This document shows positions 8,246-64,000 of a DNA stretch of 64,000 bases, piece by piece. The stretch comes from Thiemannella venezuelensis. Lineage in GTDB: Bacteria > Actinomycetota > Actinomycetes > Streptosporangiales > Streptosporangiaceae. Position 1 is the first letter of the stretch, and each line of letters opens with the position of its first letter. The DNA lies in assembly GCF_014203605.1 (NCBI RefSeq), contig NZ_JACHJJ010000005.1, positions 186,001 through 250,000 of the forward strand. The letters run 5' to 3'. Made by a program: the position numbers and the translations under genes. The notes beneath the pieces were generated by a model. It was not told where the DNA came from. It was given only the letters and a program-made list of their open reading frames with translations, and searched no databases.

Positions 8246-9550
8246 TCATGGCAGGTCGTTGGCCAACTTACCGTTCAAGGGGGAGACGAGGGACGGGCTT
8301 GACTCCTCTTCTCCCAGCAATTCAGGTGAGGTGAGCGCCCGGGGCAGCTCCTCGACCGGCGCCGGACCGTCGAGCTCGCCGTCGACCAGGCCCAGCTCGT
8401 TCAGCTTCCGGGCGCTCACCAGGACCCGCGTCTCCAGGGAGCCGACCGCCCGGTTGTAGGACTCCACGGCCCGGCCCAGCGAGCGGCCCACCGCGTCCAG
8501 GTTCCGGCCCATCGTGCCCAGGCGCTCGTAGAGTTCCTTGCCCAGCTCGAAGACCGCGCGGGCGTTCTCGCCGAGTGCGGCCTGCTGCCAGGCGTACTGC
8601 GCGGTGCGGAGCATGGTGATCAGGGTGGTGGGGGTGGCGATGTGCACGCGGCGGCGCATGGCGTGCTCCAGCAGGCCGGGGTCGCGCTCCAGCGCGGGGG
8701 CGAGGAAGGCCTCTCCCGGGATGAAGAGCACGACGAACTCCGGGGCGGGGTTGAACGCCTGCCAGTAGGCCTTGGCGGCCAGCCGGTCCACGTGCTCGCG
8801 CACGTGCCGGGCGTGGGCGCCGAGCCGCTCGGACCGGTGGCCGGGGTCGGCGGACTCGGCCGCCTCCAGGTAGGCGGCCAGGGAGACCTTGGAGTCGACC
8901 ACGATGTTCTTGCCGCCCGCGAGCCGTACGACCATGTCGGGGCGGAGCGTCCCGTCGGCGGTGGCCGCGCTCGCCTGCTCGTCGAAGTCGCAGAAGCGCT
9001 GCATCCCGGCGATCTCGGCGACCCTGCGGAGCTGGAGCTCGCCCCAGCGGCCCTGGGCGTCGGGCCGCTGCAGGGCCCGGACCAGCGCGGTCGTCTGCGT
9101 GCGGAGCCGGTCGTTGCTCTCCCGGACGATGTCGATGTGCCTGGTCAGTTCGGCGTGGGCCGCGCGCTGCCCCGCCTGCGTGTCGCGGAGCTGCGCCTCG
9201 ACCCGGGACAGGGTGTCCTTCAACGGCTCGATCAGGTGCTCGACGGCCTGCTTGCGCTGCTCCAGCTCCCCGGCCGCCTCGGCGCGCCCGGCGGCCATCC
9301 GGGTCTCGGCCAGCTCCAGGAAGCGCAGGTTGTTGACGTCGAGGGCACGGGCCGACAGCGCCTGGAACCGCTCGGTGAGCTGCCCCTCGACGTAGGCGAC
9401 CTTCTCCTCGGCCGCCCTGGCGCGGGCCTCGGCGTCGGCCAGGCGGACGGCGGCGTCCGAGGCTCCGGCCCCGGCGCGCGCCCGGCCCAGCAGGAACCCG
9501 ATCGCGAGTCCCGCGGCGAGTCCCACGGACAGCTGGAAGACGAGCGCCAT
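8246..9550 (-). CDS. rmuC: DNA recombination protein RmuC
   Basis: A 434-residue RmuC-family protein. It starts with a membrane-anchor helix (MALVFQLSVGLAAGLAIGFL), continues with a long coiled coil of Ala/Glu/Arg heptads to about residue 160, and then has the conserved RmuC nuclease-like core. Landmarks are RWGELQLRRVAEIAGM, VDSKVSLAAYLEA, VVLFIPGEAFLAPALE and TLITMLRTAQYAWQQ. RmuC limits rearrangements at inverted repeats. The ATG at 9550 is chosen because GGGGGATGG lies at good spacing; the ATG at 9559 has no room for a ribosome-binding site. Confidence 0.93.
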   Translation of the reverse strand: MALVFQLSVGLAAGLAIGFLLGRARAGAGASDAAVRLADAEARARAAEEKVAYVEGQLTERFQALSARALDVNNLRFLELAETRMAAGRAEAAGELEQRKQAVEHLIEPLKDTLSRVEAQLRDTQAGQRAAHAELTRHIDIVRESNDRLRTQTTALVRALQRPDAQGRWGELQLRRVAEIAGMQRFCDFDEQASAATADGTLRPDMVVRLAGGKNIVVDSKVSLAAYLEAAESADPGHRSERLGAHARHVREHVDRLAAKAYWQAFNPAPEFVVLFIPGEAFLAPALERDPGLLEHAMRRRVHIATPTTLITMLRTAQYAWQQAALGENARAVFELGKELYERLGTMGRNLDAVGRSLGRAVESYNRAVGSLETRVLVSARKLNELGLVDGELDGPAPVEELPRALTSPELLGEEESSPSLVSPLNGKLANDLP

Positions 9551-9692
9551 GACATCCATCCCCCGAATGATCCCAGGGCCGGCCGGCCCCGGCGGCCCGA
9601 CACGCCTTCGGACCGGCTGCCGCATTCCACTTGTGCTGAAGCATCCTGTCACTCAAAGTTCTGTATTGAACACGGAAAGTGGGGGATTTGCG

Positions 9693-10514
9693 GTGAGCGC
9701 ACGCGACTGGGGGTCGACGGCGGTGCCGGCGCTGGGGGTGACCGCCGTGGTGACGGTGATCGTGGTGGCGGTGACGGGGGTGTTCATCGCCGGGAGGGCG
9801 GAGCCGAGACCCGAGGCGGTGCGGGCGGAGACGCCCGCGACCGGGTTCGCCTGGAGGCAGGGGGCCTGCGTCGGCAGGAACGGCTCGGTGTTCCGGCTGG
9901 TCCCGTGCGGGGAGGCCGACGGGAGGGTGATCTCCGTGGTGGGCGGACGCCCGGCGGACTGCCCCGGCGAGACCGACGAGATCGTCAGGATCAGGGTCGC
10001 GTCCGAGACCGGGGAGCAGTTCTCCCCGAGCCTGCGGACCGACCGTACGGCGTGCGTGCGCAACCTCCGGCAGCCGCATCCCGGGGACCCGGGGGAGGGC
10101 GGCGGGGTCCTGCGCCCGGGCGACTGCCTGGCGCTGCGCGGCGGGGAGCGGCCCTGCTCCGCGAGCGGCTGGTACGGGAGGGTGCTGGCGCTGGTGGACC
10201 GGACGGACGAGTGCCCGAGGCGTGCGCTCGACGCGCTCCTCGTCGACGAGCGGTCGATCGCGTGCCTGGGCGAGGGCCGCCGGATGCTCTCCGTGGGAGA
10301 CTGCGTGGTCAGGCCGGCGGGGCGGAAGGTGAGCCGTGAGGCGCTCTCCAGCACGTCGTGCGGTTCCTCCCGCGCCTGGGCGGAGGTGACCGGCAGGGTG
10401 GTCTCCCGCGGGCGCTGCCCCGAGGGGTCCGACCGCTACCTGAAGGTGCGCGAGCCCGGAGTCCGGCGTCCCGTGACCTGCCTGCGGCGAGTGGCACTTC
10501 ACGGCTCCCCGTAG
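9693..10514 (+). CDS. Anchored extracellular protein with three Cys-rich LppU-like repeats
   Basis: A 273-residue protein with a single N-terminal membrane helix (VPALGVTAVVTVIVVAVTGV) and an outside domain built of three similar units. Each begins G-(A/D)-C (GACVGRNG, GDCLALRG, GDCVVRPA), continues to a second Cys and a G-R-V strand (DGRVISVV, YGRVLALV, TGRVVSRG), and ends in a third Cys (DCPG, ECPR, RCPE). This pattern resembles extracellular LppU-type domains of actinomycetes. The function is unknown, and the even Cys spacing suggests disulfides. The GTG at 9693 has GGGGGA six bases upstream. The gene is divergent from rmuC and ends 11 bases before ychF. Confidence 0.75.
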   Translation: MSARDWGSTAVPALGVTAVVTVIVVAVTGVFIAGRAEPRPEAVRAETPATGFAWRQGACVGRNGSVFRLVPCGEADGRVISVVGGRPADCPGETDEIVRIRVASETGEQFSPSLRTDRTACVRNLRQPHPGDPGEGGGVLRPGDCLALRGGERPCSASGWYGRVLALVDRTDECPRRALDALLVDERSIACLGEGRRMLSVGDCVVRPAGRKVSREALSSTSCGSSRAWAEVTGRVVSRGRCPEGSDRYLKVREPGVRRPVTCLRRVALHGSP

Positions 10515-10517
10515 ACT
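10512..10517 (+). promoter_or_regulatory. Leaderless-type -10 box for ychF
   Basis: TAGACT overlaps the stop codon of the upstream gene and ends eight bases before the GTG of ychF. This implies a start inside the upstream gene's end rather than only read-through. Confidence 0.55.
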
Positions 10518-10525
10518 CGGGTCGC

Positions 10526-11614
10526 GTGAGCCTGAGCATCGGTATCGTCGGACTGCCCAACGTCGGCAAGTCCACGCTTTTCAACGCGCTGACCAAGACC
10601 GCCAACGCACTGGCGGCGAACTACCCGTTCGCCACCATCGAGCCCAACGTGGGCATCGTCGGCGTGCCCGACGCGCGCCTGGAGAAGCTGGCCGAGATCT
10701 TCGGCTCCGCGAAGATCCTGCCGGCGAAGGTCGAGTTCGTCGACATCGCGGGTCTGGTCAAGGGGGCCTCGGAGGGGCAGGGGCGGGGCAACCAGTTCCT
10801 CGCCAACATCCGCGAGACCGACGCGATCTGCCAGGTCATCCGGGTCTTCAGCGACCCGGACGTGACCCACGTGGACGGCGCGGTCGCCCCCGAGCGCGAC
10901 ATCGAGACGATCAACACCGAGCTCATCCTCGCCGACCTGCAGACGCTGGAGAAGGCGATCCCGCGCCTGCAGAAGGAGGCCAGGACCAACAAGGACCGCA
11001 AGGCCGCGCTGGACGCCGCCGAGGCGGCCTCCAAGCTCCTCGACGGCGGCACGACGCTGTACGCCGGGGCCAAGGGCGCCGGGATCGACCTGGCGGACCT
11101 GCGCGACCTGCACCTGCTGACCGCCAAGCCGTTCCTGTACGCCTTCAACCTCGACGCCGACGAACTGGTCGACGCGGAGCTGCGCGGCAGGCTCTCGGCG
11201 CTCGTCGCACCGGCCGAGGCGGTTTTCCTGGACGCCAAGATCGAGTCGGAGCTGGTGGAGCTCTCCGACGAGGAGGCGCTGGAGCTGCTCCAGTCCGTCG
11301 GGCAGGAGGAGTCCGGCCTGGCGCAGCTCGCCCGGGTCGGGTTCGAGACCCTCGGCCTGCAGACCTACCTGACGGCGGGCCCGAAGGAGACCCGCGCCTG
11401 GACGATCCGCAAGGGCGCGACCGCCCCCGAGGCCGCCGGGGTGATCCACACCGACTTCCAGCGCGGCTTCATCAAGGCGGAGATCGTCTCCTTCGACGAG
11501 CTGGTGGAGGCGGGCTCCATCGCCGCGGCCCGGCAGGCGGGCAAGGCCCGCATCGAGGGCAAGGACTACGTGATGCGCGACGGCGACGTGGTGGAGTTCC
11601 GCTTCAACGTGTGA
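10526..11614 (+). CDS. ychF: Redox-regulated ATPase YchF (Obg-like GTPase/ATPase)
   Basis: A 362-residue TRAFAC-class P-loop protein. Visible motifs are the P-loop GIVGLPNVGKSTLFNALT at the N-terminus, the G2/G3 region VDIAGLVKGASEGQGRGNQF, the central helical insertion around LQKEARTNKDRKAALDAAEA, and the C-terminal TGS domain (TYLTAGPKETRAW to GKDYVMRDGDVVEFRFNV). YchF binds ribosomes and hydrolyses ATP in translation and stress adaptation. The length is standard. A strong hairpin follows at 11689. Confidence 0.97.
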   Translation: MSLSIGIVGLPNVGKSTLFNALTKTANALAANYPFATIEPNVGIVGVPDARLEKLAEIFGSAKILPAKVEFVDIAGLVKGASEGQGRGNQFLANIRETDAICQVIRVFSDPDVTHVDGAVAPERDIETINTELILADLQTLEKAIPRLQKEARTNKDRKAALDAAEAASKLLDGGTTLYAGAKGAGIDLADLRDLHLLTAKPFLYAFNLDADELVDAELRGRLSALVAPAEAVFLDAKIESELVELSDEEALELLQSVGQEESGLAQLARVGFETLGLQTYLTAGPKETRAWTIRKGATAPEAAGVIHTDFQRGFIKAEIVSFDELVEAGSIAAARQAGKARIEGKDYVMRDGDVVEFRFNV

Positions 11615-32542: not shown

Positions 32543-33274
32543 TCACGCCCTCCACCGGGAGGGGACGGTGAAGCGCGTACGGAGGATCCCGGCGATGTCG
32601 TCATCGAGGACCAGGGCCGCTCCCGGTGCGTCCAGCGTCCGTACCATCGCGTACAGCACATCGGCATGCGGCTGCCGGAGTAGGGCTTCTGCCCGGATCT
32701 GGGCGCGCTGATGTTCCCCACTGGAGAGCAGCCGCGCGTATCCGCGCAGCATGTCCTCGCAGCGGTCGAACGCATCCCTGCGGGCCCGCTCCAACTGCCA
32801 GCGGTCCAGCCGGAAGGTCGCAATGGTCGCCTCGCCCTTCCGGGTCTTGGCTCGATAGCGCCCGGTGTTCAGGACGAGCTGAAGATGGTCGTAAGGGTCT
32901 TCCGCGGACGGATCGACGAGCAGGCAGGCACCAGTGAGAGGGTCGCACGGGTACTCAGCTCGTTTGGCGTTGCTGTTGCAGTATTCGCAGGCCAGGAAAT
33001 GGTTGAGCCAGTCGAACGCCCGTAGCGGAGCCAGCTTGATCGGCTCGAAGTGGTCGATCGCGGTGCCGAGACTGTCTCCGCAGTACATGCAGCGCTCTAT
33101 CCCAGGTGCCATGGGCTGAAGTGCTTCACGCAGCGCTGTGCGGTCCGCGGCCGCGTTCTTCCAGCGAGAGCGGGCTGCGACTCCACCGGCCGAGCAGGTG
33201 CGAAGATGCTCGGTGTGCGCGCTGAGCCGGTCGGCCAGCTCCGCAGGGAGAGCCGGGCGGGCCAGCGGGATCAC
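32543..33274 (-). CDS. HNH endonuclease, PtuB-like (Septu-type defence)
   Basis: A 243-residue nuclease. The HNH core is complete: a zinc-knuckle pair CMYCGDS, the catalytic IDHFEPIK, then LNHFLACEYCNSNAKRA with the second Cys pair and Asn. A helical C-terminus with many Arg follows (RLDRWQLERARRDAFDRCED). Its GTG start overlaps the stop of the AAA ATPase gene as GTGA, so the two are translationally coupled. An ATPase plus HNH nuclease in this order is the composition of Septu (PtuA-PtuB), known from phage-defence work. The assignment is by architecture. Confidence 0.8.
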   Translation of the reverse strand: MIPLARPALPAELADRLSAHTEHLRTCSAGGVAARSRWKNAAADRTALREALQPMAPGIERCMYCGDSLGTAIDHFEPIKLAPLRAFDWLNHFLACEYCNSNAKRAEYPCDPLTGACLLVDPSAEDPYDHLQLVLNTGRYRAKTRKGEATIATFRLDRWQLERARRDAFDRCEDMLRGYARLLSSGEHQRAQIRAEALLRQPHADVLYAMVRTLDAPGAALVLDDDIAGILRTRFTVPSRWRA

Positions 33275-34578
33275 GAATCGTCTCCGAGGGCCCTGGAGAC
33301 CTCCCGGACACGAGTGGCCGGCGAACTCTTCAGCTCCGTGCTGAGCCGCCTGTACTCGGCCGCTTCGACGGGCGTCGCGGTTCCTTCGAGCACCTTGATC
33401 TCGAGGTCCCCGAGATCTTCGCGGAGTTCGTCCGCGCGGGGGGAGTAGGGGGAGTCCACGCCGAACAACTCCGTCACGATGGCGTCGTCGCCGCTGCCGT
33501 ACACGATCCGGCGGTAGAGGTCCTCGTCCGCGACCGCCGGGGGTGCCTGCTCGTCCGGTCCGGGAAGCCGGATGAGGCCGCCGGGGCTGGCGCTCTGGCA
33601 GATGTACGGGCTGTGCGTGGTGACGATGAACTGGATCTTCGGGAAATGAGTCTTCAGCCACTCGCCGATCTTCTGTTGCCAGCTCACATGAAGGTGTGCG
33701 TCTACCTCATCGATCAATACGACTCCCGGGTAGGGGAGCGTGGGAACGTCGTCCCGCTCTTCGATCTCCAGCGAACCGTATGCGCCATGGAGTTGCCGGA
33801 CGATGTCGAGCACCAGAGCTGTCACCGTTCGGTACCCGTCGCTCATCTGGCGTAGCGGGACCTCCTTCGATCCTCGCTGGACCCACAATCCGTCGGAATC
33901 GACGTGACGAATGCGGAGACCGTCGGGAAGGAGGCCATCCGCCAGCAGGCGCAGTACGGAGTCGAGAAGGGCAATGGCCTTCGGACGCTTTTCAAGGCGG
34001 TACAGGTGCTGCTCGACGAGCCAGCTGACGCCTTCGACCAGTGGTTCGTCTTCGTTGAAGAGAGTGCGCGATGTTTGGTGGTGGGTCCACCTGCCGGTGC
34101 CCGGTCGCCCTATCTCAGGGTTTGACAGCCTGCGGAAGGGGCCGTAACCGGCCAGGAACCATCCACGTGATTTCGGCGACCATAGTGTGTAGAGGCGGGT
34201 GTCGTCCTGGGGCCAGGAGGGAAGTCCGTCTTGACCCCATTGCAGCGTGGACCATATCGGATCGGGATATCCGGCATAGGTGAAGAGATCGTCCGCCGCG
34301 TCATCGGCCAGATCGTATGTCAGTTTGACCCGGATGCCGGCGTCGACGGGTTCAGCCGTCGCTCCGAGCCAGAGGTCGGCGAATGATCCGATGGGATTGC
34401 GGGGTCCAGAGACAGCCAGTGCAATGGCCTGTAGCAGAGTGGTTTTCCCGGAACCGTTACGGCCCGCGAGCACCGTCCAGCCGGCGAAAGAGCCATCGGG
34501 CCGGGTGAAGTCCAGGTCGACTTGGCGCGATCCAGAAAAGCCCCGTACGCCGGAGATCTGCAGATTCGCGACGTACAT
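33271..34578 (-). CDS. SMC/RecF-type AAA ATPase, PtuA-like
   Basis: A 435-residue ABC-type ATPase of the AAA_21/RecF class. Walker A is GRNGSGKTT (K45), after the typical LQISGVRGFSG start. The signature-like segment is QMSDGYRT, Walker B is GVVLIDEVDAHLH (D290, E291), and the switch His is in FIVTTHSPYIC. No transmembrane or long coiled-coil segment is present. Codon use is less GC-biased than in flanking housekeeping genes, suggesting transfer. It overlaps the HNH gene by four bases. A Septu-like defence role is inferred from the pair. Confidence 0.82.
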   Translation of the reverse strand: MYVANLQISGVRGFSGSRQVDLDFTRPDGSFAGWTVLAGRNGSGKTTLLQAIALAVSGPRNPIGSFADLWLGATAEPVDAGIRVKLTYDLADDAADDLFTYAGYPDPIWSTLQWGQDGLPSWPQDDTRLYTLWSPKSRGWFLAGYGPFRRLSNPEIGRPGTGRWTHHQTSRTLFNEDEPLVEGVSWLVEQHLYRLEKRPKAIALLDSVLRLLADGLLPDGLRIRHVDSDGLWVQRGSKEVPLRQMSDGYRTVTALVLDIVRQLHGAYGSLEIEERDDVPTLPYPGVVLIDEVDAHLHVSWQQKIGEWLKTHFPKIQFIVTTHSPYICQSASPGGLIRLPGPDEQAPPAVADEDLYRRIVYGSGDDAIVTELFGVDSPYSPRADELREDLGDLEIKVLEGTATPVEAAEYRRLSTELKSSPATRVREVSRALGDDS

Positions 34579-39604: not shown

Positions 39605-39961
39605 ATGAGCTGGGGTATGGTGGAACTGGAGCCAGAGGTTCGGGAGTGGCTGGAAAGCCTCCCCGCGGACTCGTTCGCGAAGGTGGTGTTCTATGTCGAG
39701 CTGCTGGCGGCCGAGGGCCCTCTACTGGGCGAGCCCTACACGAAACAGCTCTCGGGAAAGCTACGTGAGCTCCGGTTCCACCTCAACGAGCTCGCTATGC
39801 GGATCACCTATTGGATTGCGCCTCATCGCCGGATCGTGCTCCTGACCGTGTTCCACAAGACACGTACACGCGATGATCGCGAGGTCGCACGTGCTCGGAG
39901 GGCTATGCTCCGCTGCATTGAGCAGGCACATACTCCTGACGAGGAAGAGGAGGCGGTATGA
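39605..39961 (+). CDS. RelE/HigB-type toxin (Gp49-like)
   Basis: A 118-residue toxin of the phage-derived Gp49/HigB class within the RelE/ParE fold. It shows VREWLESLPADSFAKVVFYV, then KQLSGKLRELRFHLNELAMR and the strand ITYWIAPHRRIVLLTVFHKT, with ARARRAMLRCIEQ as the C-terminal helix. The basic Arg/Lys/His cluster (FHKTRTRDD) fits ribosome-dependent mRNA cleavage. The toxin-first order with a downstream XRE antitoxin is the HigBA arrangement. The stop overlaps the antitoxin start as ATGA. The base composition is less GC-rich than in the flanking genes. Confidence 0.9.
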   Translation: MSWGMVELEPEVREWLESLPADSFAKVVFYVELLAAEGPLLGEPYTKQLSGKLRELRFHLNELAMRITYWIAPHRRIVLLTVFHKTRTRDDREVARARRAMLRCIEQAHTPDEEEEAV

Positions 39962-40251
39962 GCGAAAGCTGGCAGGAGCTCAGAGATCGCCGGATGGCCG
40001 AACCAGGTGCGGCTGAGGCGTACGAAGCTGCCAGGCTCGCTTATGAGCTGGGTAAGGCGGTGCGAGCGATGCGAGAAGAACGAGGATGGACCCAGAGCGA
40101 CCTGGCTCGTAGAGCGAGCATGACCCAATCGGCCGTGGCACGGTTCGAGGCAGGGGGCACCATGCCCACTATTCCTCTGCTGGAGCGTCTCGCCGAGGCG
40201 CTGGGGATGCGCCTGAACGTTGGATTCCAGCCACTCCGTGAAGCAAGCTGA
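39958..40251 (+). CDS. XRE-family antitoxin (HigA-like)
   Basis: A 97-residue protein with an XRE helix-turn-helix: LGKAVRAMREERGWTQSDLA, then RRASMTQSAVARFEAGGTMP and LLERLAEALGMRL. It neutralises the upstream RelE/HigB-like toxin and probably represses the operon by binding its promoter. The N-terminal 30 residues (SESWQELRDRRMAEPGAAEA) are the toxin-binding part in related antitoxins. The gene overlaps the toxin by four bases and is followed after 21 bases by another HTH gene. Confidence 0.92.
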   Translation: MSESWQELRDRRMAEPGAAEAYEAARLAYELGKAVRAMREERGWTQSDLARRASMTQSAVARFEAGGTMPTIPLLERLAEALGMRLNVGFQPLREAS

Positions 40252-40272
40252 CCGAGCGGGCAGGTGCTTGCC

Positions 40273-40536
40273 ATGGCTCATCACCCTCAAATGCCGACCG
40301 CTTCCGAGGCCGCAGACCTTTTGAAGGTGAGTCCTTCGACGCTGATCCGTCTACTGGAGCAGGGAGAGATCCCATATGAGCAAGTGGGCGAGGAGCGGCG
40401 GATGTTGCTCCGTGACGTCCTGACCTACCGTGAACGGCGGCGGCATCAGCGTCGTGAGGGGATGGACGAGCTTGTCCGGATCTCCGAGGAGATGAATCTC
40501 TACGAGATTACGGCGACGCCGCGAAGAACACGTTAA
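40273..40536 (+). CDS. Excisionase/MerR-type HTH protein, orphan antitoxin-like
   Basis: An 87-residue protein with a MerR/excisionase-like HTH (TASEAADLLKVSPSTLIRLL, EQGEIPYEQVGEERRMLLRD) and a basic-acidic C-terminal helix (YRERRRHQRREGMDELVRIS). It closely resembles the HTH part of the PIN-linked antitoxin at 55464-55919 (TREAADLLGISRPTLIKLLE). Here no PIN toxin gene follows: the next bases form a terminator and an opposing MerR gene. It may be a leftover antitoxin or an extra regulator of the HigBA-like pair. The ATG at 40273 is preferred over GTG at 40264. Confidence 0.8.
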   Translation: MAHHPQMPTASEAADLLKVSPSTLIRLLEQGEIPYEQVGEERRMLLRDVLTYRERRRHQRREGMDELVRISEEMNLYEITATPRRTR

Positions 40537-55463: not shown

Positions 55464-55919
55464 GTGACGACCGCAGCCAACGCCTTGATGCCCGATCCGG
55501 ACGAGGCTCATGCCCTCGAAAAAGTGACGCGTGTGCTGCACTGCCAGGTGCGCCCGCGGTTGCGGCTCGTCCATGAGGGCGCCGAAGCCGATCTCCCTCC
55601 CTCTCTCGCCTCCGCGCTGGTCCGGATCGCCGAGCTGATGGCGGCGGGCCGAGGGGTGGCCATCGTTCCTGTGGACCGGGAACTGACCACCAGGGAAGCT
55701 GCGGACCTGCTCGGCATCTCCCGGCCGACATTGATCAAACTTCTCGAAGACGGTGAGATCGGGTTCACCCGGCCCAACAACAGCCGCCGCATTCCCCTGC
55801 ACGAGGTCCTCGACTACAAGGAACGTCGCAGCCGTCGGCGCAAGGCGCTCCTCGACGAGATGACCACCGACGCCATCGACGCGGGTTTCTACGACATGCC
55901 GTCTTCGGACGCCGGGTGA
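55464..55919 (+). CDS. HTH antitoxin paired with a PIN-domain toxin
   Basis: A 151-residue DNA-binding antitoxin. The N-terminal part is helical (PDEAHALEKVTRVLHCQVRP), and the C-terminal part has an excisionase/MerR-like HTH (LTTREAADLLGISRPTLIKL, LEDGEIGFTRPNNSRRIPLH) and a basic helix (DYKERRSRRRKALLDEMTTD). The toxin gene follows after nine bases. GGAAGGAG is at good spacing from the GTG at 55464. Two TTGCACTT direct repeats lie about 45 bases upstream and could be its operator. A similar but shorter HTH gene is at 40273-40536. Confidence 0.87.
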   Translation: MTTAANALMPDPDEAHALEKVTRVLHCQVRPRLRLVHEGAEADLPPSLASALVRIAELMAAGRGVAIVPVDRELTTREAADLLGISRPTLIKLLEDGEIGFTRPNNSRRIPLHEVLDYKERRSRRRKALLDEMTTDAIDAGFYDMPSSDAG

Positions 55920-55928
55920 TGCGCGCCC

Positions 55929-56363
55929 ATGACCATCGCAGTCCTCGATGCGAATGTGCTCATCCCCAACGCCCTGTGTGATCTACTCCTCCGACTCGCC
56001 GAGGAGGACCTTCTCCAGCCACGGTGGTCGCCCCACATCATGGAGGAGATGCAGCGGCATTTGCCCTCGGCCGACCCGCAGGCCCTCCGCCGTCGCGTCA
56101 ACGCCATGAACACGGCCTTCGAGGACGCCATGGTGATCGGGTATGACGAATTGATCGTTCAGATGACCGACCATCCCAAAGACCGGCACGTTCTGGCGGC
56201 GGCGATTCGGGCGGACGCCGATCTGATCATCACATGCAATCTCCGGGACTTTCCGGCGGAGTCCTGCGATCTCCATGGCATCGAGGTGCAGCATCCTGAT
56301 GACTTCCTGCTCGATCTTCTCGAACGGGAACCCGCCGCGATCCACCGGGTGATCCTTCAGTAG
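55929..56363 (+). CDS. PIN-domain toxin, apparently truncated by an amber codon
   Basis: A 144-residue PIN-domain ribonuclease. Acidic catalytic residues are in AVLDANVLIPNALCDLLLRL (first Asp), HIMEEMQRHL, DHPKDRHVLAAAIRADADLI and TCNLRDFPAE, with HPDDFLLDLLEREP near the end. The frame stops at TAG (56361-56363), but the same frame stays open for another 50 codons (56364-56513, TAA to 56516). That stretch reads RFGPKLTPVEIVHYLSTAGA, then RFAARLLARF, which looks like the C-terminal helix of this PIN subfamily. A recent nonsense mutation or read-through is likely. Confidence 0.88.
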   Translation: MTIAVLDANVLIPNALCDLLLRLAEEDLLQPRWSPHIMEEMQRHLPSADPQALRRRVNAMNTAFEDAMVIGYDELIVQMTDHPKDRHVLAAAIRADADLIITCNLRDFPAESCDLHGIEVQHPDDFLLDLLEREPAAIHRVILQ

Positions 56364-57216: not shown

Positions 57217-58020
57217 TCAGGACCGGCCGATCTCCGCGGGCAGGTCGAGGGCGAGGATCTGGTCGAGGTGGAGGAAGGCCTCGAAGCGGGAGCCGGGGGC
57301 GACCGACTCGTCCCGCTCCAGCTCGTCCACCAGACGCAGTGTCCGCGGGGTGCCGAGGTCGTCGCGGAGGGCGTCCTCGATCGCGGCGACCCGCTCGGCG
57401 GGCATCGGGGCGCTGGGCGCCTCCGACCACGTCGCGACCCGGGAGCGCCAGAACCGCAGGGTCGCGTCGGCGGCACGCAGGGTGTCCCAGGTGAGCTCCG
57501 CGTCCTCGCGGTAGTGGTGCCCCAGCAGCGCCAGCCGCACCGCCAGCGGATCGAGCCCCGCCTCCACCACCTCCCGGAGCCGTACGGCCCCGCCTCCGTC
57601 CCGCCCCGCGGGGAGCTCCCGGCCCTCGAAGCGCAGCCGCCCGGCCCGGACCCGCCGGACCACGCCGTCCCGGAGGCCCGGGTCGAGGAGCACCGCTCCG
57701 CTCCCGTCCTCCGCGGAGACGAACCCGGCCACCGGTCCGGCCACCTCGTCCGCCCGCAGCGAGCGGTCCGGAGGCCGCACGTTCAGCGCCGGCATGTCGT
57801 CCGCGGACGTCTCCCCGTCGGTCACACGGCAGGCCAGCACCCGCACCCGGTGCCGCTCGGCGATCCGCCTGATCAGGTCGGCCAGCAGGAGAGGGCGGAG
57901 ATCCCCCAGATGGACCCGGTGGCGGGCCGGCGGGCCGACGGCGTACAGCCGCAGGGAACGGGCGCCCTCGGGGACGACCGGCTCGGTCAGGCCGCTGTGC
58001 GTGTCATGGAGCCGAAGCAT
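57217..58020 (-). CDS. Shortened cysteinyl-tRNA synthetase/MshC-like protein
   Basis: A 267-residue protein that follows the CysRS/MshC pattern in miniature. The start LRLHDTHSGLTEPV leads to SLRLYAVGPPARHRVHLGDL and RPLLLADLIRRIAERHRVRV, corresponding to the catalytic YVCGPTVY...HIGN region. The zinc-binding Cys is absent and HIGN reads HLGD. No KMSKS loop is visible. The end has LDPLAVRLALLGHHYREDAE and the helical tail of CysRS. It probably lacks aminoacylation activity. Its function is unknown. It starts six bases after a TAGTCT box. Confidence 0.7.
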   Translation of the reverse strand: MLRLHDTHSGLTEPVVPEGARSLRLYAVGPPARHRVHLGDLRPLLLADLIRRIAERHRVRVLACRVTDGETSADDMPALNVRPPDRSLRADEVAGPVAGFVSAEDGSGAVLLDPGLRDGVVRRVRAGRLRFEGRELPAGRDGGGAVRLREVVEAGLDPLAVRLALLGHHYREDAELTWDTLRAADATLRFWRSRVATWSEAPSAPMPAERVAAIEDALRDDLGTPRTLRLVDELERDESVAPGSRFEAFLHLDQILALDLPAEIGRS

Positions 58021-58104: not shown

Positions 58105-59952
58105 TCAGGCGGTGCCCTCCAGGTAGGCGAGGATTTCGCGGTCGCCGCGGTCGCGGAGCCGGGCCACGACCTCGTCCCGGGTGCAGCCGTCGGGCAGGCC
58201 GATGCGCGCGCCGATCAGGCGCAGGCCCTCCGCCTCCGAGGCCACCGGGGCGGTGTAGCCGATCAGGTGCAGCGCCCGGTTCAGCGCCGGGATGCCCGGC
58301 AGCGCCGCGGGCAGGTAGCGGGTGAGCAGCTCGCCGCCGTCGGAGACCGTCAGGAAGACGTGGTCGCCCTCGGCGGCGTTGGAGGAGGCCAGGACCGGGC
58401 GGATGGAGCCCATGGTCGGCTGGTTGTGCCAGCTGATCACCACGTCGCCCGAGGGGGTGGAGGCGGTGAGCTGGCCCCCCGGGGCCATGCCGAGGTACGC
58501 GGCGAACCCGGTGGGCAGCGGGGAGCCGGAGCCGCGCAGGTGCTCGGCGTTGACGTCCACCCGGTGCCACCAGCGCCCGTCCCGGCTGCGGAAGCAGCGC
58601 CGGGTCGCCGAGACGTCCCGGCGCGGCTGGTAGTCGGCCGGCTCGGTCCCTGCCACCCGGATCCACCCGCGCTGGGTGCGCTCGAAGCCGGGGCCGCCCG
58701 CGTAGGCGCGCACCGAGCTCTCGCTCACGTCGTAGCGCCCGGTCAGGTTGGCGACGATCGTGTTGACCGAGGCCTCGCCCCCGGCCCGCTCGATCTCTCT
58801 GACGATCATCTCGCGGATGCCCAGGTACTGCTCGCCGCCCCAGCGGGCCAGGCCGTACTTGTTGCGGTCCAGCCGGAGGAACCGGTCGTCGGCGGTGAGC
58901 TGGTTGCGGATGCCGACCAGGCTGTAGTCCTCGCCGATGCGCTCCTGGATCTCCTCGGGGGTCAGGGCGTTGCCGGCCACCGCGAGCACGGCCTCCGCCT
59001 TGTCGTTGACGCTGCGCGGCCAGGGCACCACGTGGTCCTCCAGCACGCGCAGCTGCGGAACGGAGAGCAGCCAGCGCTCGGCCACGTCCTCGCGGATGCC
59101 GAGCTGGCTGACCAGGGTGACGGCCTCCGGCAGCGGGCGCGGCCCGTCGGTGAACAGCTGCCGGGTCTTCTCCCGCAGCTCGTCGGCGCCGCCCGCGACC
59201 AGCCACCCGTCCACCTGGTCGTAGCCGGTCAGCAGGGTCCGCACGAACCGCCAGGCCGGGATGGTGAGCGTGGCCAGGTCGGTGCGGTGCCAGGGCACCG
59301 CCGCGGCCAGGTCGTCGGCCGGTACGGCGGAGCCGAGCCGGCCGCGCAGCCACGACACGTGCGCCACCAGCGGGGCCGCCTCCGGGCCCGCCAGCCAGGC
59401 CTCGACGTGGTCGCGCAGGTCGCGCTCGATCTGCCGGATGCGCTCCCGCGTCACCGAGAACCGCTGGGCCAGCTCGTCCAGGGTCACCCGCTGGGAGGCG
59501 TAGAGCCGGTCCCTGGCGATGGCCCGCTGCCGGTCGTCCAGAGAGGTGAAGACCTCGTCGATCAGCTCGGGCAGCGGCCGGTCGGGCCGGGAGGAGCGGG
59601 CCGGGGCGGCGCCGTCCTCGGCGACGGGTTCGAGCAGTCGCTCCAGCACCCCGGTGAAGAGCCGGTGCACCGCCTCGCGGCCGAGCGCCTCGGGGGTGCT
59701 CGCGCTCGCGGCCGGGTCGGCGAACCTGAGCAGGGGGAGGACGTCGCCGAGCACCAGATGCCCCCAGCAGGCGAGGGCCAGGTCGGCGAGCCGTCCGGCG
59801 ACCTCGGAGGTCCCCACGGTGGAGCAGGCCCGCTCCAGCGGGATTGCCTGCCACCACGCCTCGGGGAGACGGGTGTCGGTTGCGATCGGCGCTACCTGGC
59901 CGGGAGAGGTCCAGCGCAGGGGTGGCGCGATGTCGCTCAGGCTGAGGTTCAT
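58105..59952 (-). CDS. Sigma-region-4-like HTH protein (paralogue B of the helicase operon)
   Basis: A 615-residue protein. Residues 136-180 match the sigma-70 region 4 pattern (TLDELAQRFSVTRERIRQIE is the HTH with the IRQIE ending). A middle region (330-470) looks like winged-helix domains (NALTPEEIQERIGEDYSLVG, GGEASVNTIVANLTGRYDVS). The C-terminal domain (480-615) begins RRCFRSRDGRWWHRVDVNAE and has PLPTGFAAYLGMAPGG. The C-terminal domain is shared with the gene at 62069. It is the third gene of a minus-strand operon, 49 bases after the helicase. I do not know a described function; transcription control or defence is possible. Confidence 0.75.
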   Translation of the reverse strand: MNLSLSDIAPPLRWTSPGQVAPIATDTRLPEAWWQAIPLERACSTVGTSEVAGRLADLALACWGHLVLGDVLPLLRFADPAASASTPEALGREAVHRLFTGVLERLLEPVAEDGAAPARSSRPDRPLPELIDEVFTSLDDRQRAIARDRLYASQRVTLDELAQRFSVTRERIRQIERDLRDHVEAWLAGPEAAPLVAHVSWLRGRLGSAVPADDLAAAVPWHRTDLATLTIPAWRFVRTLLTGYDQVDGWLVAGGADELREKTRQLFTDGPRPLPEAVTLVSQLGIREDVAERWLLSVPQLRVLEDHVVPWPRSVNDKAEAVLAVAGNALTPEEIQERIGEDYSLVGIRNQLTADDRFLRLDRNKYGLARWGGEQYLGIREMIVREIERAGGEASVNTIVANLTGRYDVSESSVRAYAGGPGFERTQRGWIRVAGTEPADYQPRRDVSATRRCFRSRDGRWWHRVDVNAEHLRGSGSPLPTGFAAYLGMAPGGQLTASTPSGDVVISWHNQPTMGSIRPVLASSNAAEGDHVFLTVSDGGELLTRYLPAALPGIPALNRALHLIGYTAPVASEAEGLRLIGARIGLPDGCTRDEVVARLRDRGDREILAYLEGTA

Positions 59953-60001
59953 TGAGGTCCAACCGGCAAAGGGGAATGTATCCGCAGTTCAGAGTATGTG
60001 G

Positions 60002-62065
60002 TCAGGTAGGGAGAAAAGGGCTGGCACGTCCGGAATAGGACACGTAGAGCACCTCCTCGGCCCGGGTGCAGGCCACGTAGAGCAGGCCGCGTTCGCGCTG
60101 GAGGTCGTGCGCCCGGGCCGAGGGATCCTCCCCGGCCGGGGTGAGCGAGTCGGGGGCGGGCACGATGCCGTCGGAGACGCCGATCACGGCGACCCGCCGG
60201 AACTCCAGGCCCTTCATGCCGTGCAGCGTGGTCACCCGCACTCCCGTCTCCCGCAGGGCGGCCCTGGCGTCCCGGACGAGCTCCGCGGTCCGCGCGGCGA
60301 CGCCGATCTCCCCGGGGGGGACGCCGTCCTGGAGCCACTGCGCGACGTGCGCGGCCAGACCGCTCAGCTCGTCCTGCGGCGATCCGTAGGCGCGGACCAT
60401 CGGGCGCGGGCCGTGCCGCATGGAGCGGAAGCCGTACAGCTCCTGGACCCCGGCCACCAGCCCGTCCGCCGGTCCGCCCCCGCGCAGCCGCACCCCCCAG
60501 GAGAGGATCTCCTGCGGGAGCCGGTACGACACCTGCAGCAGCCGCTGGTCGGCGTCGATCCCCACCGTGCCCAGAGCCACCCGGGTGTCGAAGACGCGCT
60601 GGTGCGGGTCGCCCACGATGAACAGGTCGTCCGGCGCGTACGGCACCGCCGCGCGCAGCAGCCGCCACTGCGTGGGGTGCAGGTCCTGCGCCTCGTCCAC
60701 CACGATGTGCCGGTACGGCTCCCGCCGGGGCTCCGCCTCCTCCAGCAGGTCGCCGGTGGTCTGGCCGAGCAGGGTCGCCGCCTCGGCGGCGAGCTGGAGC
60801 AGGGTCCGCCTGCCGCGCTCGGCCAGCCGCCCGGTGACGTGCCCGACGGCCTGCCAGACGGCGGTGCGCTGCTCGGCGGAGAGGTCGACGGCGCGGCCGG
60901 CGCGCGGGGCGGCCAGATACTCGTCCAGGGTGCGGAGGTTCTGCGCCAGGATCACCTGCTCCCACTCGCGCAGCAGGAACGCCGGGCCGTACTCGCCGCT
61001 CGCCTCCCGCCAGAGCGCGGTCAGCTCGCCCGAGCCGACCAGCGAGGGCGGGCGGTCCTCCGCCTCGGCGACGATGCGGTGGGCGAGCCGGTCCACGTTC
61101 CCGACCTCGACGCGCTTGCGCACCACCTCGTCCTCGATCAGCAGGTCGAGCCTGGCCGACAGGTCGGCGCTCAGCCCCTGGGAGAAGGCGACCAGCAGGA
61201 CCGGGCCGGAGCCGTTCCTGGCCAGGTGGGCCGCGCGGTGCAGGGCGACGAGGGTCTTGCCGGTCCCCGCCCCGCCGGTGACCAGGAGCGGCCGGTCGTA
61301 GGAGTCCCAGTGGGCCAGCCGGTGCTGCGGCGGGTGCAGGAACACGCACCAGCCGGGTGCGTCCAGCACGTGGTTCAGCTCTCGAGGGCCGTCGACGAAG
61401 ACCGCCCGGTCCGGGCTGCGCCGGAGCGCGGCGGCGAGGTCGTCGAGCTCCTCGGGGCCGATCGGGCCGGTGCCGGCGACCGCGCGGTGGTTCTCCAGCT
61501 CCCGCCAGGCCCCGGCCACCGACTCGCCCCGGGCCAGCGCGGCCAGGGGCGCGTACTGGGTGGGCGGCAGCAGCGGCTCCAGCGCCTCCAGGGTCAGCTC
61601 GTCGGTGATCTGCCGGAGCAGCGGGAGGAACCTGTGGTCGATCCCCAGCTCGCCCAGGTCGGTGTCGCAGACCTGGGCGAACAGCCGGGCCCGGGACGCC
61701 GCGGCCGCCCTGCGGACGGCCGGCTCCACCCGCTCCAGCGCCGCGGCGTCCCACAGCTCGGCCACGCCGAGCACGGGGTTGACCCCGAAGCGCAGGCGCT
61801 GGGCGTAGGCCCAGGCCTCGGCGTCCGGCAGGACGGTCAGCAGCCAGTAGACGTCCCGCTGCCTGATCACGACGCCGCGGTGCCGGTCTGCGAGGCGGAG
61901 CGTCGCGACCCGGTCGTCCCTGGCCCCCCTGACCCGCTCCGGGTGCGGTCCGCCCGAGGTGTTCTGCAGGAACCGGCGTACGGCGACCACCGCGTCCCGG
62001 CGCACCGGCTGGGCCAGGGCGCCGAGCTCCGCGGGGAACCGGGGGGAGAGGGCGAGTCGGGGCAT
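60002..62065 (-). CDS. UvrD/Rep-type helicase with RelE/ParE-like N-terminal domain
   Basis: A 687-residue superfamily 1 helicase. Motif I is LLVTGGAGTGKTLVALHRAA (Lys near 270), motif II HIVVDEAQDLHPTQWRLL, motif III LFIVGDPHQRVFDTR, motif IV VSYRLPQEI, motif V TTLHGMKGLEFRRVAVIGV and motif VI RGLLYVACTRAEEVLYVSYS. The first 100 residues (DAVVAVRRFLQNTSGGPHPE, then VATLRLADRHRGVVIRQRDV and WLLTVLPDAEAWAYAQRLRF) resemble a RelE/ParE toxin fold, an arrangement I recall for some DNA helicases. It starts three bases after the stop of the upstream paralogue, so the operon is tightly coupled. Confidence 0.85.
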   Translation of the reverse strand: MPRLALSPRFPAELGALAQPVRRDAVVAVRRFLQNTSGGPHPERVRGARDDRVATLRLADRHRGVVIRQRDVYWLLTVLPDAEAWAYAQRLRFGVNPVLGVAELWDAAALERVEPAVRRAAAASRARLFAQVCDTDLGELGIDHRFLPLLRQITDELTLEALEPLLPPTQYAPLAALARGESVAGAWRELENHRAVAGTGPIGPEELDDLAAALRRSPDRAVFVDGPRELNHVLDAPGWCVFLHPPQHRLAHWDSYDRPLLVTGGAGTGKTLVALHRAAHLARNGSGPVLLVAFSQGLSADLSARLDLLIEDEVVRKRVEVGNVDRLAHRIVAEAEDRPPSLVGSGELTALWREASGEYGPAFLLREWEQVILAQNLRTLDEYLAAPRAGRAVDLSAEQRTAVWQAVGHVTGRLAERGRRTLLQLAAEAATLLGQTTGDLLEEAEPRREPYRHIVVDEAQDLHPTQWRLLRAAVPYAPDDLFIVGDPHQRVFDTRVALGTVGIDADQRLLQVSYRLPQEILSWGVRLRGGGPADGLVAGVQELYGFRSMRHGPRPMVRAYGSPQDELSGLAAHVAQWLQDGVPPGEIGVAARTAELVRDARAALRETGVRVTTLHGMKGLEFRRVAVIGVSDGIVPAPDSLTPAGEDPSARAHDLQRERGLLYVACTRAEEVLYVSYSGRASPFLPT

Positions 62066-62068
62066 CGG

Positions 62069-64000
62069 CTACGCCAGGAGGGACTGCAGGTCGCGGTCCC
62101 CGCGCTCGCGCAGGCGGGTGAGGAGGTCGGGCAGGGTCACCGGTCCGCTCATCCCGACGCGGGTGGCGACGACGCGTGCGGCGTGCTCGGGGGTCTCGCA
62201 GGGCGCGGTGTAGCCCACCAGGCGCAGCGCCCGCACGATCGGCTCCACTCCCGATCCCGCGGCGGGCAGGTGCCTGGCGCGCAGCACCCCCTCGTCGGAC
62301 AGCGTAAGGAACAGGTGACTTCCCTCCTTGGCGCCCGCGTCCCGCAGCAGCGGGCCGAGCGAGTCCAGAACCGGCCGGTCCCGCCAGCTCAGGGTCAGCT
62401 CGCCCACCGCGCTGCTGACCGTACGGCCGCCGCCGGGGGCCATGCCCAGGTAGGCGGCGAACCCGGTGGGCAGCGGGCACTCGGCGCCCTCGACGTGCTC
62501 GGCGGTGACGTCGATCCTCAGCCACCAGCGGCCGTCCGGCTGGCGGAAGCAGCGCCGGGTGAGCGCCACGTCCTTGAGCGGGCGGAACGGGGACCGGGCC
62601 TGCCCGGGCGCTCCGGCGGGCTCCTCGGCCGGACCGGGCTCCGAGGGCTCTCCGGCCGGTTCCCGGACCGGTCCCCGGTCCGGTTCCGGCGCGGGCTCCC
62701 GGTCCGGTTCCGGCGCGGGCTCCCGGTCCGGTTCCGGCGCGGGCTCCCGGTCCGGTTCCGGCGCGGGCTCCCGGACCGGTCCGGGGTCCGGTGCCGGCAG
62801 GGGTTCCCGGACGGGTTCCCAGGGCGCCTCCCCGGCCGGCCTCCCGGCCAGGGCCGTCGCCTGCGCCGTGCCGTTGAGGCGAAGGGCCGCGGGGTCGTTC
62901 GCGCCGAGGATGCGCAACTGCGGGACGTTCTCCAGCCACTCCTTGGCGACCTCGGGATGGATGCCGAGGGAGGAGATCAGCTCCAGGGCGCGGCCGACGG
63001 TCGGGCGCTCGGCGCCGCTGATGAGATCCCGGGTGCGGTGCCGCAGGTCGGCGATGTCGCCGTCGACCAGCCAGTCGTCGACCAGGTGGTGGTCCGGGAG
63101 GGTGGCGAGCACGAACTGCCAGGCGGGCACGTCGAGGGAGCGGAGTTCGAGCGTGTGCCAGCCGGCCGCGCCGATCAGCCGGCTCCGGGGGGCCGCCTTG
63201 CCGAGGAGCGCCCGCAGCCCCGCGAGGTGCTCCCGGTACGGCTCCGCCTCGTCGGAGGCGAGCCATTCCTCCAGTCGCCGGCGCAGCTCGGCCTCGGTGT
63301 CGCGGATGACCTCGGGCCGGACCGCGAAGAGCTTGGCCAGCGCCTCGACGGCCGCGGGTTCGTCGCTGAACACCCGGTTCTGCGCGACGGCCCAGCTCGT
63401 GTCCTCCAGCCCGGTGAACACCCCGTCGAGAAGCGCGTGCAGATCCACGGGTCCGGGCGCCCGCCCGGCCTGCGGCGCCTCGGGCTCCGCCGGCGCCTCG
63501 GGTTCCGCCGGCGCCTCGGGTTCCGGCGCCGTCTCGGGCTCCGCCGTCTCGGGCTCCGCCGTCTCGGGCTCCGCGGCCGTCTCGGGCTCCGCGGCCGTCT
63601 CGGGTTCTGCGGCGGCCTCGGGCTCCGGCGTCTCGGGTTCCGGCGCCTCGGGCTCCGCGGCTGCTGCGGGTTCCGGCGCCTCGGGCTCCGCGGCCGGGGC
63701 GGCGGCCCCGGCGACGGCGGCCCCGGAGAGCGGGGGAACGCCGGGGGCCACGGCGGGAGCCGGGGCGAGGCGGGTGAAGACCGCCGAGAAGAGGGTCTGC
63801 AGGAGCGGACGGACCCGGACGAAGGGCTGGTCGCGGAGGCCGTGGCCGGTGAGGGCGAGCAGCCCGGGCCACGAGCCCGCGCGGTCGAGCGCGATGGCCG
63901 TGCAGGGCTCGTCGAGCTCCGCGGCCTCGTCGGGGTCCAGCACGTACAGGGCGGGCAGGACGTCGCCCACCGCCGCCGCGGGCCAGTGCCTCAGGGTGAT
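62069..64000 (-). CDS. Sigma-region-4-like paralogue A of the helicase operon (partial, 5' end outside window)
   Basis: An open frame runs from the window edge to TAG at 62069-62071 (643 codons visible), with WPAAAVGDVLPALYVLDPDE at the visible N-terminus aligning to WGHLVLGDVLPLLRFADP of the gene at 58105. The C-terminal domain is clearly homologous (RRCFRQPDGRWWLRIDVTAE, PLPTGFAAYLGMAPGG). The HTH is weaker (VEALAKLFAVRPEVIRDTEA), and the winged-helix section is replaced by Pro/Glu repeats, including EPAPEPDR four times and long AEPE stretches. It is therefore a divergent paralogue, the first visible gene of the operon. Confidence 0.78.
   Translation of the reverse strand: MTLRHWPAAAVGDVLPALYVLDPDEAAELDEPCTAIALDRAGSWPGLLALTGHGLRDQPFVRVRPLLQTLFSAVFTRLAPAPAVAPGVPPLSGAAVAGAAAPAAEPEAPEPAAAAEPEAPEPETPEPEAAAEPETAAEPETAAEPETAEPETAEPETAPEPEAPAEPEAPAEPEAPQAGRAPGPVDLHALLDGVFTGLEDTSWAVAQNRVFSDEPAAVEALAKLFAVRPEVIRDTEAELRRRLEEWLASDEAEPYREHLAGLRALLGKAAPRSRLIGAAGWHTLELRSLDVPAWQFVLATLPDHHLVDDWLVDGDIADLRHRTRDLISGAERPTVGRALELISSLGIHPEVAKEWLENVPQLRILGANDPAALRLNGTAQATALAGRPAGEAPWEPVREPLPAPDPGPVREPAPEPDREPAPEPDREPAPEPDREPAPEPDRGPVREPAGEPSEPGPAEEPAGAPGQARSPFRPLKDVALTRRCFRQPDGRWWLRIDVTAEHVEGAECPLPTGFAAYLGMAPGGGRTVSSAVGELTLSWRDRPVLDSLGPLLRDAGAKEGSHLFLTLSDEGVLRARHLPAAGSGVEPIVRALRLVGYTAPCETPEHAARVVATRVGMSGPVTLPDLLTRLRERGDRDLQSLLA
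62681..62776 (-). repeat. Four 24-bp tandem repeats encoding EPAPEPDR
   Basis: Copies of CGGTTCCGGCGCGGGCTCCC plus four bases lie at 62681-62704, 62705-62728, 62729-62752 and 62753-62776. Only the last has a single mismatch. In-frame 8-residue units extend a Pro/Glu linker. Confidence 0.9.

Follow-up and report, generated by a model that had tools for sequence, protein, structure and literature searches.

The closest described counterpart of the helicase considered here is ArmD of ARMADA type II, which, according to the accessible portions of a bioRxiv 2025 preprint (PMC12458937), fuses an N-terminal RelE-like domain to a GajB-like UvrD helicase; phage protection in E. coli was lost entirely on deletion of armD or with the substitution K266A, and D454N caused a partial loss. 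We analysed a 64,000-nucleotide stretch of the Thiemannella venezuelensis genome (the window; bases 186001-250000 of contig C5, in a genome of 8.18 Mb and 85 contigs), which carries a gene for a helicase of this kind between two genes, hthA and hthB, for predicted DNA-binding proteins that we refer to as readers. An original prediction, made by a model from the letters alone, had described three minus-strand genes spaced 3 and 49 bases apart, and the open reading frames (ORFs) bore this out, with 3 bp between hthA and the helicase gene and 49 bp between the helicase gene and hthB (Table 1). Our preferred explanation, to which we give a probability of roughly one half, is that parts of immune origin were domesticated in this operon into a helicase of the core genome, guided by readers and with a predicted function. 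The homology, gene order, vertical pattern, domain content and motif states reported below were computed.

The helicase, its N-terminal domain and its conservation

The UvrD/Rep-type assignment in the original prediction held, both by Pfam (UvrD, E-value 5.3e-19) and by fold. The AlphaFold2 (AF2) model of the helicase, built from 38 sequences, had a mean predicted local distance difference test score (pLDDT) of 91, and K270, D457 and R668 were invariant in all 85 helicases compared, including 25/25 from operons of this type. A plasmid-encoded E. coli protein of 704 aa aligned with the window helicase nearly end to end (31% identity over 721 columns, E-value 2e-95). We took this protein to be ArmD-type because its Walker residues, K266 and D454, equal the published ArmD numbers; its gene lies in an ARMADA-like order of DEAD helicase, methyltransferase, 2113-aa helicase and 704-aa helicase. 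The window helicase resembles ArmD in its RelE-UvrD fusion, its similar length and its full-length alignment to the ArmD-type protein, and the Walker A lysine and Walker B aspartate of ArmD are present as K270 and D457 in 25/25 operon helicases. Since helicases of this kind are already described, as ArmD of ARMADA type II, the earlier statement that no described system has this composition does not stand for the helicase. For the operon, as for the reader family, we found no description in the literature searched, part of it accessible in excerpt and most subscription papers lying outside the search.

The operon differs from the known systems in its surroundings. None of ten defence queries run by tblastn (PbeA, PbeC, PbeD, ArmB, ArmC, DrmB, DrmD, DrmMI and two DUF262 types; ArmA was not used as a query) gave a match at 28 operon loci, a set that includes two stretches of the window genome and one locus with hthB only. 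Unlike ARMADA type II, the operon thus has no neighbour matching the ArmB- or ArmC-type proteins encoded at the E. coli plasmid locus and, unlike PbeABCD, no PbeA, PbeC or PbeD nearby (0/28 in each case). ArmD itself differs from the window helicase, which is flanked by DNA readers, is vertically inherited and has D/E at the position of the YoeB histidine discussed below. The best PADLOC match of the window helicase was GajB of Gabija (E-value 2.3e-27, partial), which is also UvrD-type, whereas the extra RelE-like N-terminus is found in the window helicase; we noticed no GajA among the neighbouring genes read, although no search aimed at GajA was made. HelD, PcrA and UvrD have the superfamily 1A (SF1A) motor fold in common with the window helicase, which carries the RelE-like domain instead. 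The superfamily 1 (SF1) part is also like that of Schlafen group III proteins (SLFN11/14; Pfam SLFN-g3, E-value 0.0012; VIA Z 22.6-23.6). In both, a ribonuclease-like part precedes the helicase; the N-terminal fold of the Schlafen proteins is a different one, and the likeness is an analogy only.

In a tree of 85 helicases, with support from the Shimodaira-Hasegawa-like approximate likelihood ratio test (SH-aLRT) only, the 25 operon rows formed one clade (support 100) with a long stem (0.63), nested with 18 solo helicases in a group of 43 (support 99). Solo RelE-UvrD helicases keep different company: at least one of the ten defence queries lay within the fetched stretch in 11 of 16 loci, which were hand-picked, not random, and three of which had supplied query proteins. 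PADLOC scans of the neighbours of representative solo helicases gave DrmB, DrmC, DrmD, DrmMI, a partial DruE-like match, DUF262 types and a PD-T4-6-like kinase. The helicase alignment was interrupted at about residues 347-418 in 17 genomes of genus code g6, a genus that joined with Nonomuraea in the tree; the three g6 helicases inspected were 606-619 aa long and kept the ATPase motifs, one of them with Asp for the Walker B Glu.

The first 90 residues of the helicase run strand-helix-helix-three strands-helix in the full-length AF2 model, which is the RelE/ParE order, and a profile of the N-domain family matched RelE-type toxins weakly (2khe, E-value 0.0049; YoeB, 0.056; RelE3, 0.36). Pfam gave no RelE/ParE match for the window helicase's own N-terminus; its ParE_toxin family was matched by 6/29 helicase family members (best E-value 6e-4), the window protein not among them. 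The structural match list for the whole helicase contained no RelE chain, but helicases fill that list, which makes it uninformative either way. Together with the alignment to the ArmD-type protein, the element order and the profile matches bear out the RelE/ParE-like N-terminus that had been read from the sequence.

In YoeB, the residues E46, R65 and H83 (and Y84) are essential, with H83 as the general acid (PMC12620021, PMC2791442); the corresponding general acid of RelE is Arg81 (PMC12620021), as stated in the accessible parts of these papers. Our profile alignment to the YoeB chain sets window positions 43, 63 and 81 opposite Glu, Arg and His, a correspondence that, like the transfer from chain to E. 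coli numbering, is our own reading. At these positions the ArmD-type proteins of E. coli and Microvirga carry E, R and H. At position 81, 60 other helicases have H (52), R (7) or Q (1), and all 25 operon helicases have an acidic residue, D in 22 and E in 3; position 43 is E in 25/25 and position 63 is R in 24/25 of the latter. Position 54, R in 51/60 of the others, is A, V, T or F in the operon helicases, and position 82, D in 52/60 of the others, is mostly A. The window domain is therefore like RelE/YoeB toxins in its element order and unlike them in having D/E at the general-acid position (the register relative to RelE is less sure). Because the residue aligned with the YoeB His is missing in 25/25 operon helicases, an active toxin is unlikely, and from these alignments the RelE-like domain is probably inactive as a toxin in the operon clade.

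At the cut-offs used, an hth match was found in 125/150 genomes of the order and a helicase match in 139/150. Among the matches listed, full-length hthB at 76% identity or more occurred in at least 65 of the 150 genomes, and an operon-type helicase (one or more segments at 64% or higher) in 64 of those 65, the exception being G124. Genera with the operon include Acrocarpospora, Microbispora, Sphaerimonospora, Nonomuraea and Streptosporangium (among the best 80 of 360 matches). We fetched 20 of the 65 genomes, all picked as hthB carriers, and found the order hthA-helicase-hthB in 19. Because the order is identical in so many, the operon appears to be more than a chance arrangement, and the neighbourhood in other genomes that the original prediction had proposed as its own test was upheld. 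In G124 (locus L091) only hthB is present, hthA and the helicase gene being missing, and the window genome itself has a third hth paralogue on contig C14 (L016:7970-9703) with no helicase alongside.

HthB was 76-96% identical to 20 other aligned sequences. Its median identity to the window genome (82%, n=20) was matched by that of the neighbouring aminotransferase (83%, n=19), so hthB is as conserved as this adjacent gene and slow-evolving; the helicase had a median of 70% (n=19) and hthA one of 54% (n=20, with roughly two thirds of its length covered). Genes like those for a S-adenosylmethionine-dependent methyltransferase, a substrate-binding protein, a ferredoxin and an aminotransferase lie upstream (names mostly by inspection), and a cysteinyl-tRNA synthetase-like gene lies downstream. 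These flanking genes are largely common to the 20 fetched genomes, which points to vertical inheritance, and the locus looks like core chromosome and not like a mobile defence island.

The hth readers and their relatives

The two hth genes are paralogues, as predicted, with 38% identity overall and 47% over the C-terminal part. Sigma-70 region 4 had been assigned to both proteins; this stood for hthB, in which region 4 and HARE-HTH were each found in 21/21 sequences (Pfam, E-value up to 0.05; best HARE-HTH E-value 1.9e-4), and failed for hthA, in which Pfam detected neither (0/16 sequences). HthA has Pro/Glu-rich low-complexity linkers and retains the N- and C-terminal domains. The hthB segment aligned with sigma-A region 4 on -35 DNA (1ku7) with Z 6.7 and a root-mean-square deviation (rmsd) of 1.9 over 71 residues. 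Since only hthB has region 4 and Pfam gave no other sigma regions, we do not regard the hth proteins as sigma factors; genuine sigma factors were ruled out by the lack of a Pfam match to region 2 in either protein. MzaA of the MZA system matches this region 4 segment only (NCBIfam E-value 5.4e-10, 38.7 bits against a cut-off of 800; PADLOC E-value 5.5e-5), with no similarity beyond it in these scans.

The domain common to both hth C-termini, also noted in the original prediction, resembles a B3 DNA-binding fold. Plant B3 domains and the N-domain of LlaJI.R1, a bacterial restriction protein, took Foldseek ranks 3-4 and 7-10 (E-values 0.013-0.087), and VIA gave Z 6.4-7.1, with VRN1 at 7.1 (rmsd 2.4 over 91) and LlaJI.R1 at 6.6. 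Several B3 entries coincide on the same hthB residues, although Z values below 8 are moderate and no B3 family was matched by sequence in the Pfam scans of hthB sequences. Sixteen diverse relatives have the common core EHLRGSG ... W ... GSxR in this region, degenerate in the window hthA. We gave no family to the winged helix of hthB because the fold is common.

Readers also occur outside the operon. A class search gave matches in 37/296 genomes, ten of them outside family code f1, and a phylum search in 6/396. We compared 18 reader loci outside the family (L288-L291, L156, five plasmid loci and eight more; L278 was excluded as too short). Of the 17 plasmid records that carry a reader, five were read (H2, H4, H5, H6 and H8). 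Genes were called with a home-made finder tuned to GC-rich genes, the lower-GC loci L284 and L288 being read from ORF lists. In 5/18 loci, all from actinomycetes, the reader adjoins phage-defence genes of PbeABCD, or CxC-ABC ATPase-DndE, systems (described in PMC10853773, accessible in part): it stands directly before PbeA-PbeC-PbeD in L284, L288, L334 and L156 (the L156 gene matches over no more than 110 residues), and in L336 it adjoins PbeC-PbeA on the opposite strand. PADLOC scans of such neighbours identified PbeA (E-value 9e-254), PbeC (E-value 0) and, in L156, PbeD (E-value 6e-4); the PbeD-like protein of L288 had no PADLOC match and was 40% identical to the L156 PbeD. Locus L156, from S. 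kebangsaanensis, continues after PbeD with a full reader, a RelE-UvrD helicase and a Tn3 transposase, and as this helicase sits on another branch of the tree, the locus is a second, separate reader and RelE-UvrD pairing. A candidate third pair, on the Microbacterium plasmid of L283, was rejected since its helicase pieces were UvrD and PD-(D/E)XK without a match to the RelE-helicase profile.

In a tree of 33 readers, hthA (10 rows), hthB (10) and solo core copies (6) formed separate clades. Because a solo reader is similarly placed in five loci (L304-L307 and L309, genus codes g3, g19 and g25), between fatty-acid-synthesis-like and SUF-like genes (names by inspection), the reader family also has stable chromosomal members. 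A phage origin was rejected, hthB having no match at E-value 1e-3 in 50,697 phage records. Against viral contigs, the hth alignment gave 29 pattern matches, none confirmed, and the helicase alignment at least 80 loci, four among those listed with E-values below 1e-30.

Some of the outside loci had features of their own. In L335 (G695) the reader lies next to a full-length DUF262 gene, a defence-type partner with 37% identity to the L103 copy. The reader of L288 (7086-10979; G541) has a fused N-terminal region in which Cys/His HNH-like motifs, seen by eye, recur, and a cysteine-desulfurase-like gene (Aminotran_5) lies on the other strand there. In L284, an Arthrobacter plasmid (NZ_AP024649.1), the reader at 9326-11524 has an RNA polymerase alpha-CTD-like domain (E-value 8.5e-6, above the gathering score) and sigma region 4; the Pbe copy of this plasmid may be broken, because PbeA and PbeC are each split over two reading frames. 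A Mycolicibacterium vanbaalenii plasmid (L286, NZ_CP126902.1, 10151-21637) has its reader about 1.5 kb from DUF499, DUF1156 and helicase-related genes; DUF499-associated systems are treated as BREX-related in the accessible part of PMC12839542.

Possible functions of the operon

If the operon is a domesticated immune module, its helicase would derive from RelE-UvrD (ArmD-type) helicases of anti-phage operons, and its partners would belong to a multi-domain DNA-reader family with members beside PbeA, PbeC and PbeD in other actinomycetes. The helicase would have become fixed in the core chromosome, between hthB and its diverged copy hthA, in an ancestor of the Streptosporangium-like genera, and the RelE-like domain would have lost the residue aligned with the YoeB catalytic acid. 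HthB may bind specific sites on DNA with its sigma-4, HARE, winged-helix and B3 domains, hthA may bridge through the shared N- and C-terminal domains, and the pair would place the helicase on bound DNA, where ATP-driven 3'-5' translocation would unwind DNA or strip proteins; the RelE fold would now be a docking or nucleic-acid-holding part and not a ribonuclease. We infer the binding, the complex formation, the direction of action, the RNase loss and a physiological role in chromosome upkeep. A more pointed version, which we put forward only tentatively, is that in a whole actinomycete lineage an immune RelE-helicase became a core-genome machine for constitutive, reader-guided chromosome surveillance, with the toxin disarmed and flanked on both sides by a type of reader otherwise seen at a different sort of immune locus. 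If true, bacteria would here offer an example of immune-to-housekeeping exaptation in which the sequence still shows the disarming step. The findings link the newly described ArmD to a DNA-reader family that also accompanies PbeABCD genes and whose sigma-4, HARE, winged-helix and B3 domains are now mapped. They also supply natural forms of one RelE-helicase, some 'active-looking' and some 'disarmed-looking', through which the role of the RelE domain in ARMADA becomes directly testable, and a candidate case of defence genes taking on housekeeping work.

Several points weigh against domestication. The support is computational and the function predicted only. As the operon helicases are one clade, the change at position 81 is a single, unreplicated event, and its match to YoeB H83 comes from a weak profile alignment (E-value 0.056); the alignment to 2khe sets the family's His opposite Ala, the His of the toxin falling in the preceding column, which makes the register against RelE-type toxins less sure. 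Since G124 retains hthB without hthA and the helicase, hthB may act alone, and the fast change of hthA could equally mark an arms race. Outside the family, the link between reader and helicase is one locus, and 12/18 reader loci have no Pbe or DUF262 genes, three of these with partial helicase matches (L290 to ArmC, E-value 1e-38; L286 and L341 to DrmD) and nine with none. The AF2 model of hthB, from 13 sequences, has pLDDT 78 and a low predicted template-modelling score (pTM) of 0.40. Its top two Foldseek matches were to a UFL1-DDRGK1 chimera, neither B3 nor sigma-4 (E-value 4e-4, template-modelling score 0.16-0.17, spread over some 280 columns), and the B3 and winged-helix Z values of 6-8 are moderate.

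The operon might instead be a working anti-phage system that has become fixed in the chromosome, its readers recognising modified bases (by HARE) and sites (by B3) in invader DNA and loading a helicase that unwinds or clears this DNA, with the RelE domain as a sensor or with an altered active site. We find this possible but doubtful. A defence function has been shown for the tested relative, ArmD, many relatives of the helicase and reader adjoin defence genes, the ATPase motifs of the operon helicases are intact and hthA evolves fast; set against this are the lack of any of the ten defence queries near the 28 operon loci, the chromosomal surroundings largely common to the 20 fetched genomes, the slow evolution of hthB and the replaced RelE acid position. 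The defence role suggested in the original prediction is kept as a link to defence families, and present-day phage defence is unproven because the locus resembles core chromosome and not a mobile defence island.

A transcription-linked helicase, in which the sigma-4 domain of hthB would touch polymerase or promoter DNA while the helicase, in the manner of PcrA/UvrD or HelD, clears polymerase away or pulls it back, seems unlikely to us. It would account for the sigma-4 fold matches of hthB, which include sigma-4/beta-flap chimeras, for the HelD-polymerase structures among the structural matches of the helicase and for the alpha-CTD-like domain of the Arthrobacter plasmid relative. SF1 motors generally have this fold, however, sigma-HTH-like domains occur in defence proteins too (BrxL, PMC12839542, and a DndH variant, PMC10853773, from the accessible parts of both papers), and hthA has no detectable sigma-4. 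A toxin-antitoxin-like unit, with a toxic RelE-helicase and hth proteins as antitoxins or repressors, we judged very unlikely after counting the residues at position 81. Although the fold is RelE-like and the genes lie three bases apart, the putative catalytic position is replaced in 25/25, the partners (615-700 aa with several DNA-binding domains) are unlike usual antitoxins, and 16 solo helicase loci have no such partner.

Coordinates and neighbouring genes

Table 1. Features of the operon and its downstream neighbour, in window positions
Feature	Coordinates	Strand	Basis and remarks
hthB	58105..59952	-	615 aa; multi-domain DNA-binding protein (predicted); ORF, Pfam, AF2 model
Sigma-70 region 4 type helix-turn-helix (HTH), hthB residues 137-178	59419..59544	-	Pfam E-value 3.4e-7, above gathering score
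HARE-HTH-like, hthB residues 314-371	58840..59013	-	Pfam E-value 0.007, below gathering score
Winged helix, hthB residues 373-441	58630..58836	-	VIA Z 7-8 to forkhead, BlaI/MecI
B3-like DNA-binding domain, hthB residues 456-551 (the PLPTGFAAYLGMAPGG domain)	58300..58587	-	Foldseek, VIA
Helicase	60002..62065	-	687 aa; ArmD-type RelE-UvrD; ORF, Pfam, AF2 model
RelE/ParE-like domain, helicase residues 1-95	61781..62065	-	Element order in model; residue 81 is Asp
UvrD/Rep SF1A motor, helicase residues 241-687	60005..61345	-	VIA UvrD-DNA Z 33.3; ATPase motifs intact
hthA	62069..64000, on 171 bases past window end	-	700 aa in whole genome; hthB paralogue
Shortened second cysteinyl-tRNA synthetase-like gene, neighbour of operon	57217..58020	-	NCBIfam

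The second cysteinyl-tRNA synthetase-like gene was near the operon in 19/20 fetched loci. A KMSKS-type motif was found in 7/20 copies (window included), the others being shortened or altered; the gene is a duplicate, perhaps decaying in several lineages.

A defence-island reading of the window locus was rejected, given the 0/28 result for the ten queries and a sole defence pair in the window, Septu-like, 23 kb off. This pair, at 32543-34578 on the minus strand, encodes an HNH-type protein (181 aa) and an AAA ATPase (435 aa), matched in PADLOC by Septu PtuB (E-value 1.8e-67) and PtuA (E-value 2.9e-151). On contig C46 of the window genome (15394-19866) there is one DruE/YprA-type helicase frame. 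The plus strand of the window also holds two small toxin-antitoxin-like pairs, a Gp49-type with HTH_17 at 39617-40536 and an HTH_17 with a PIN_3 protein at 55464-56363.

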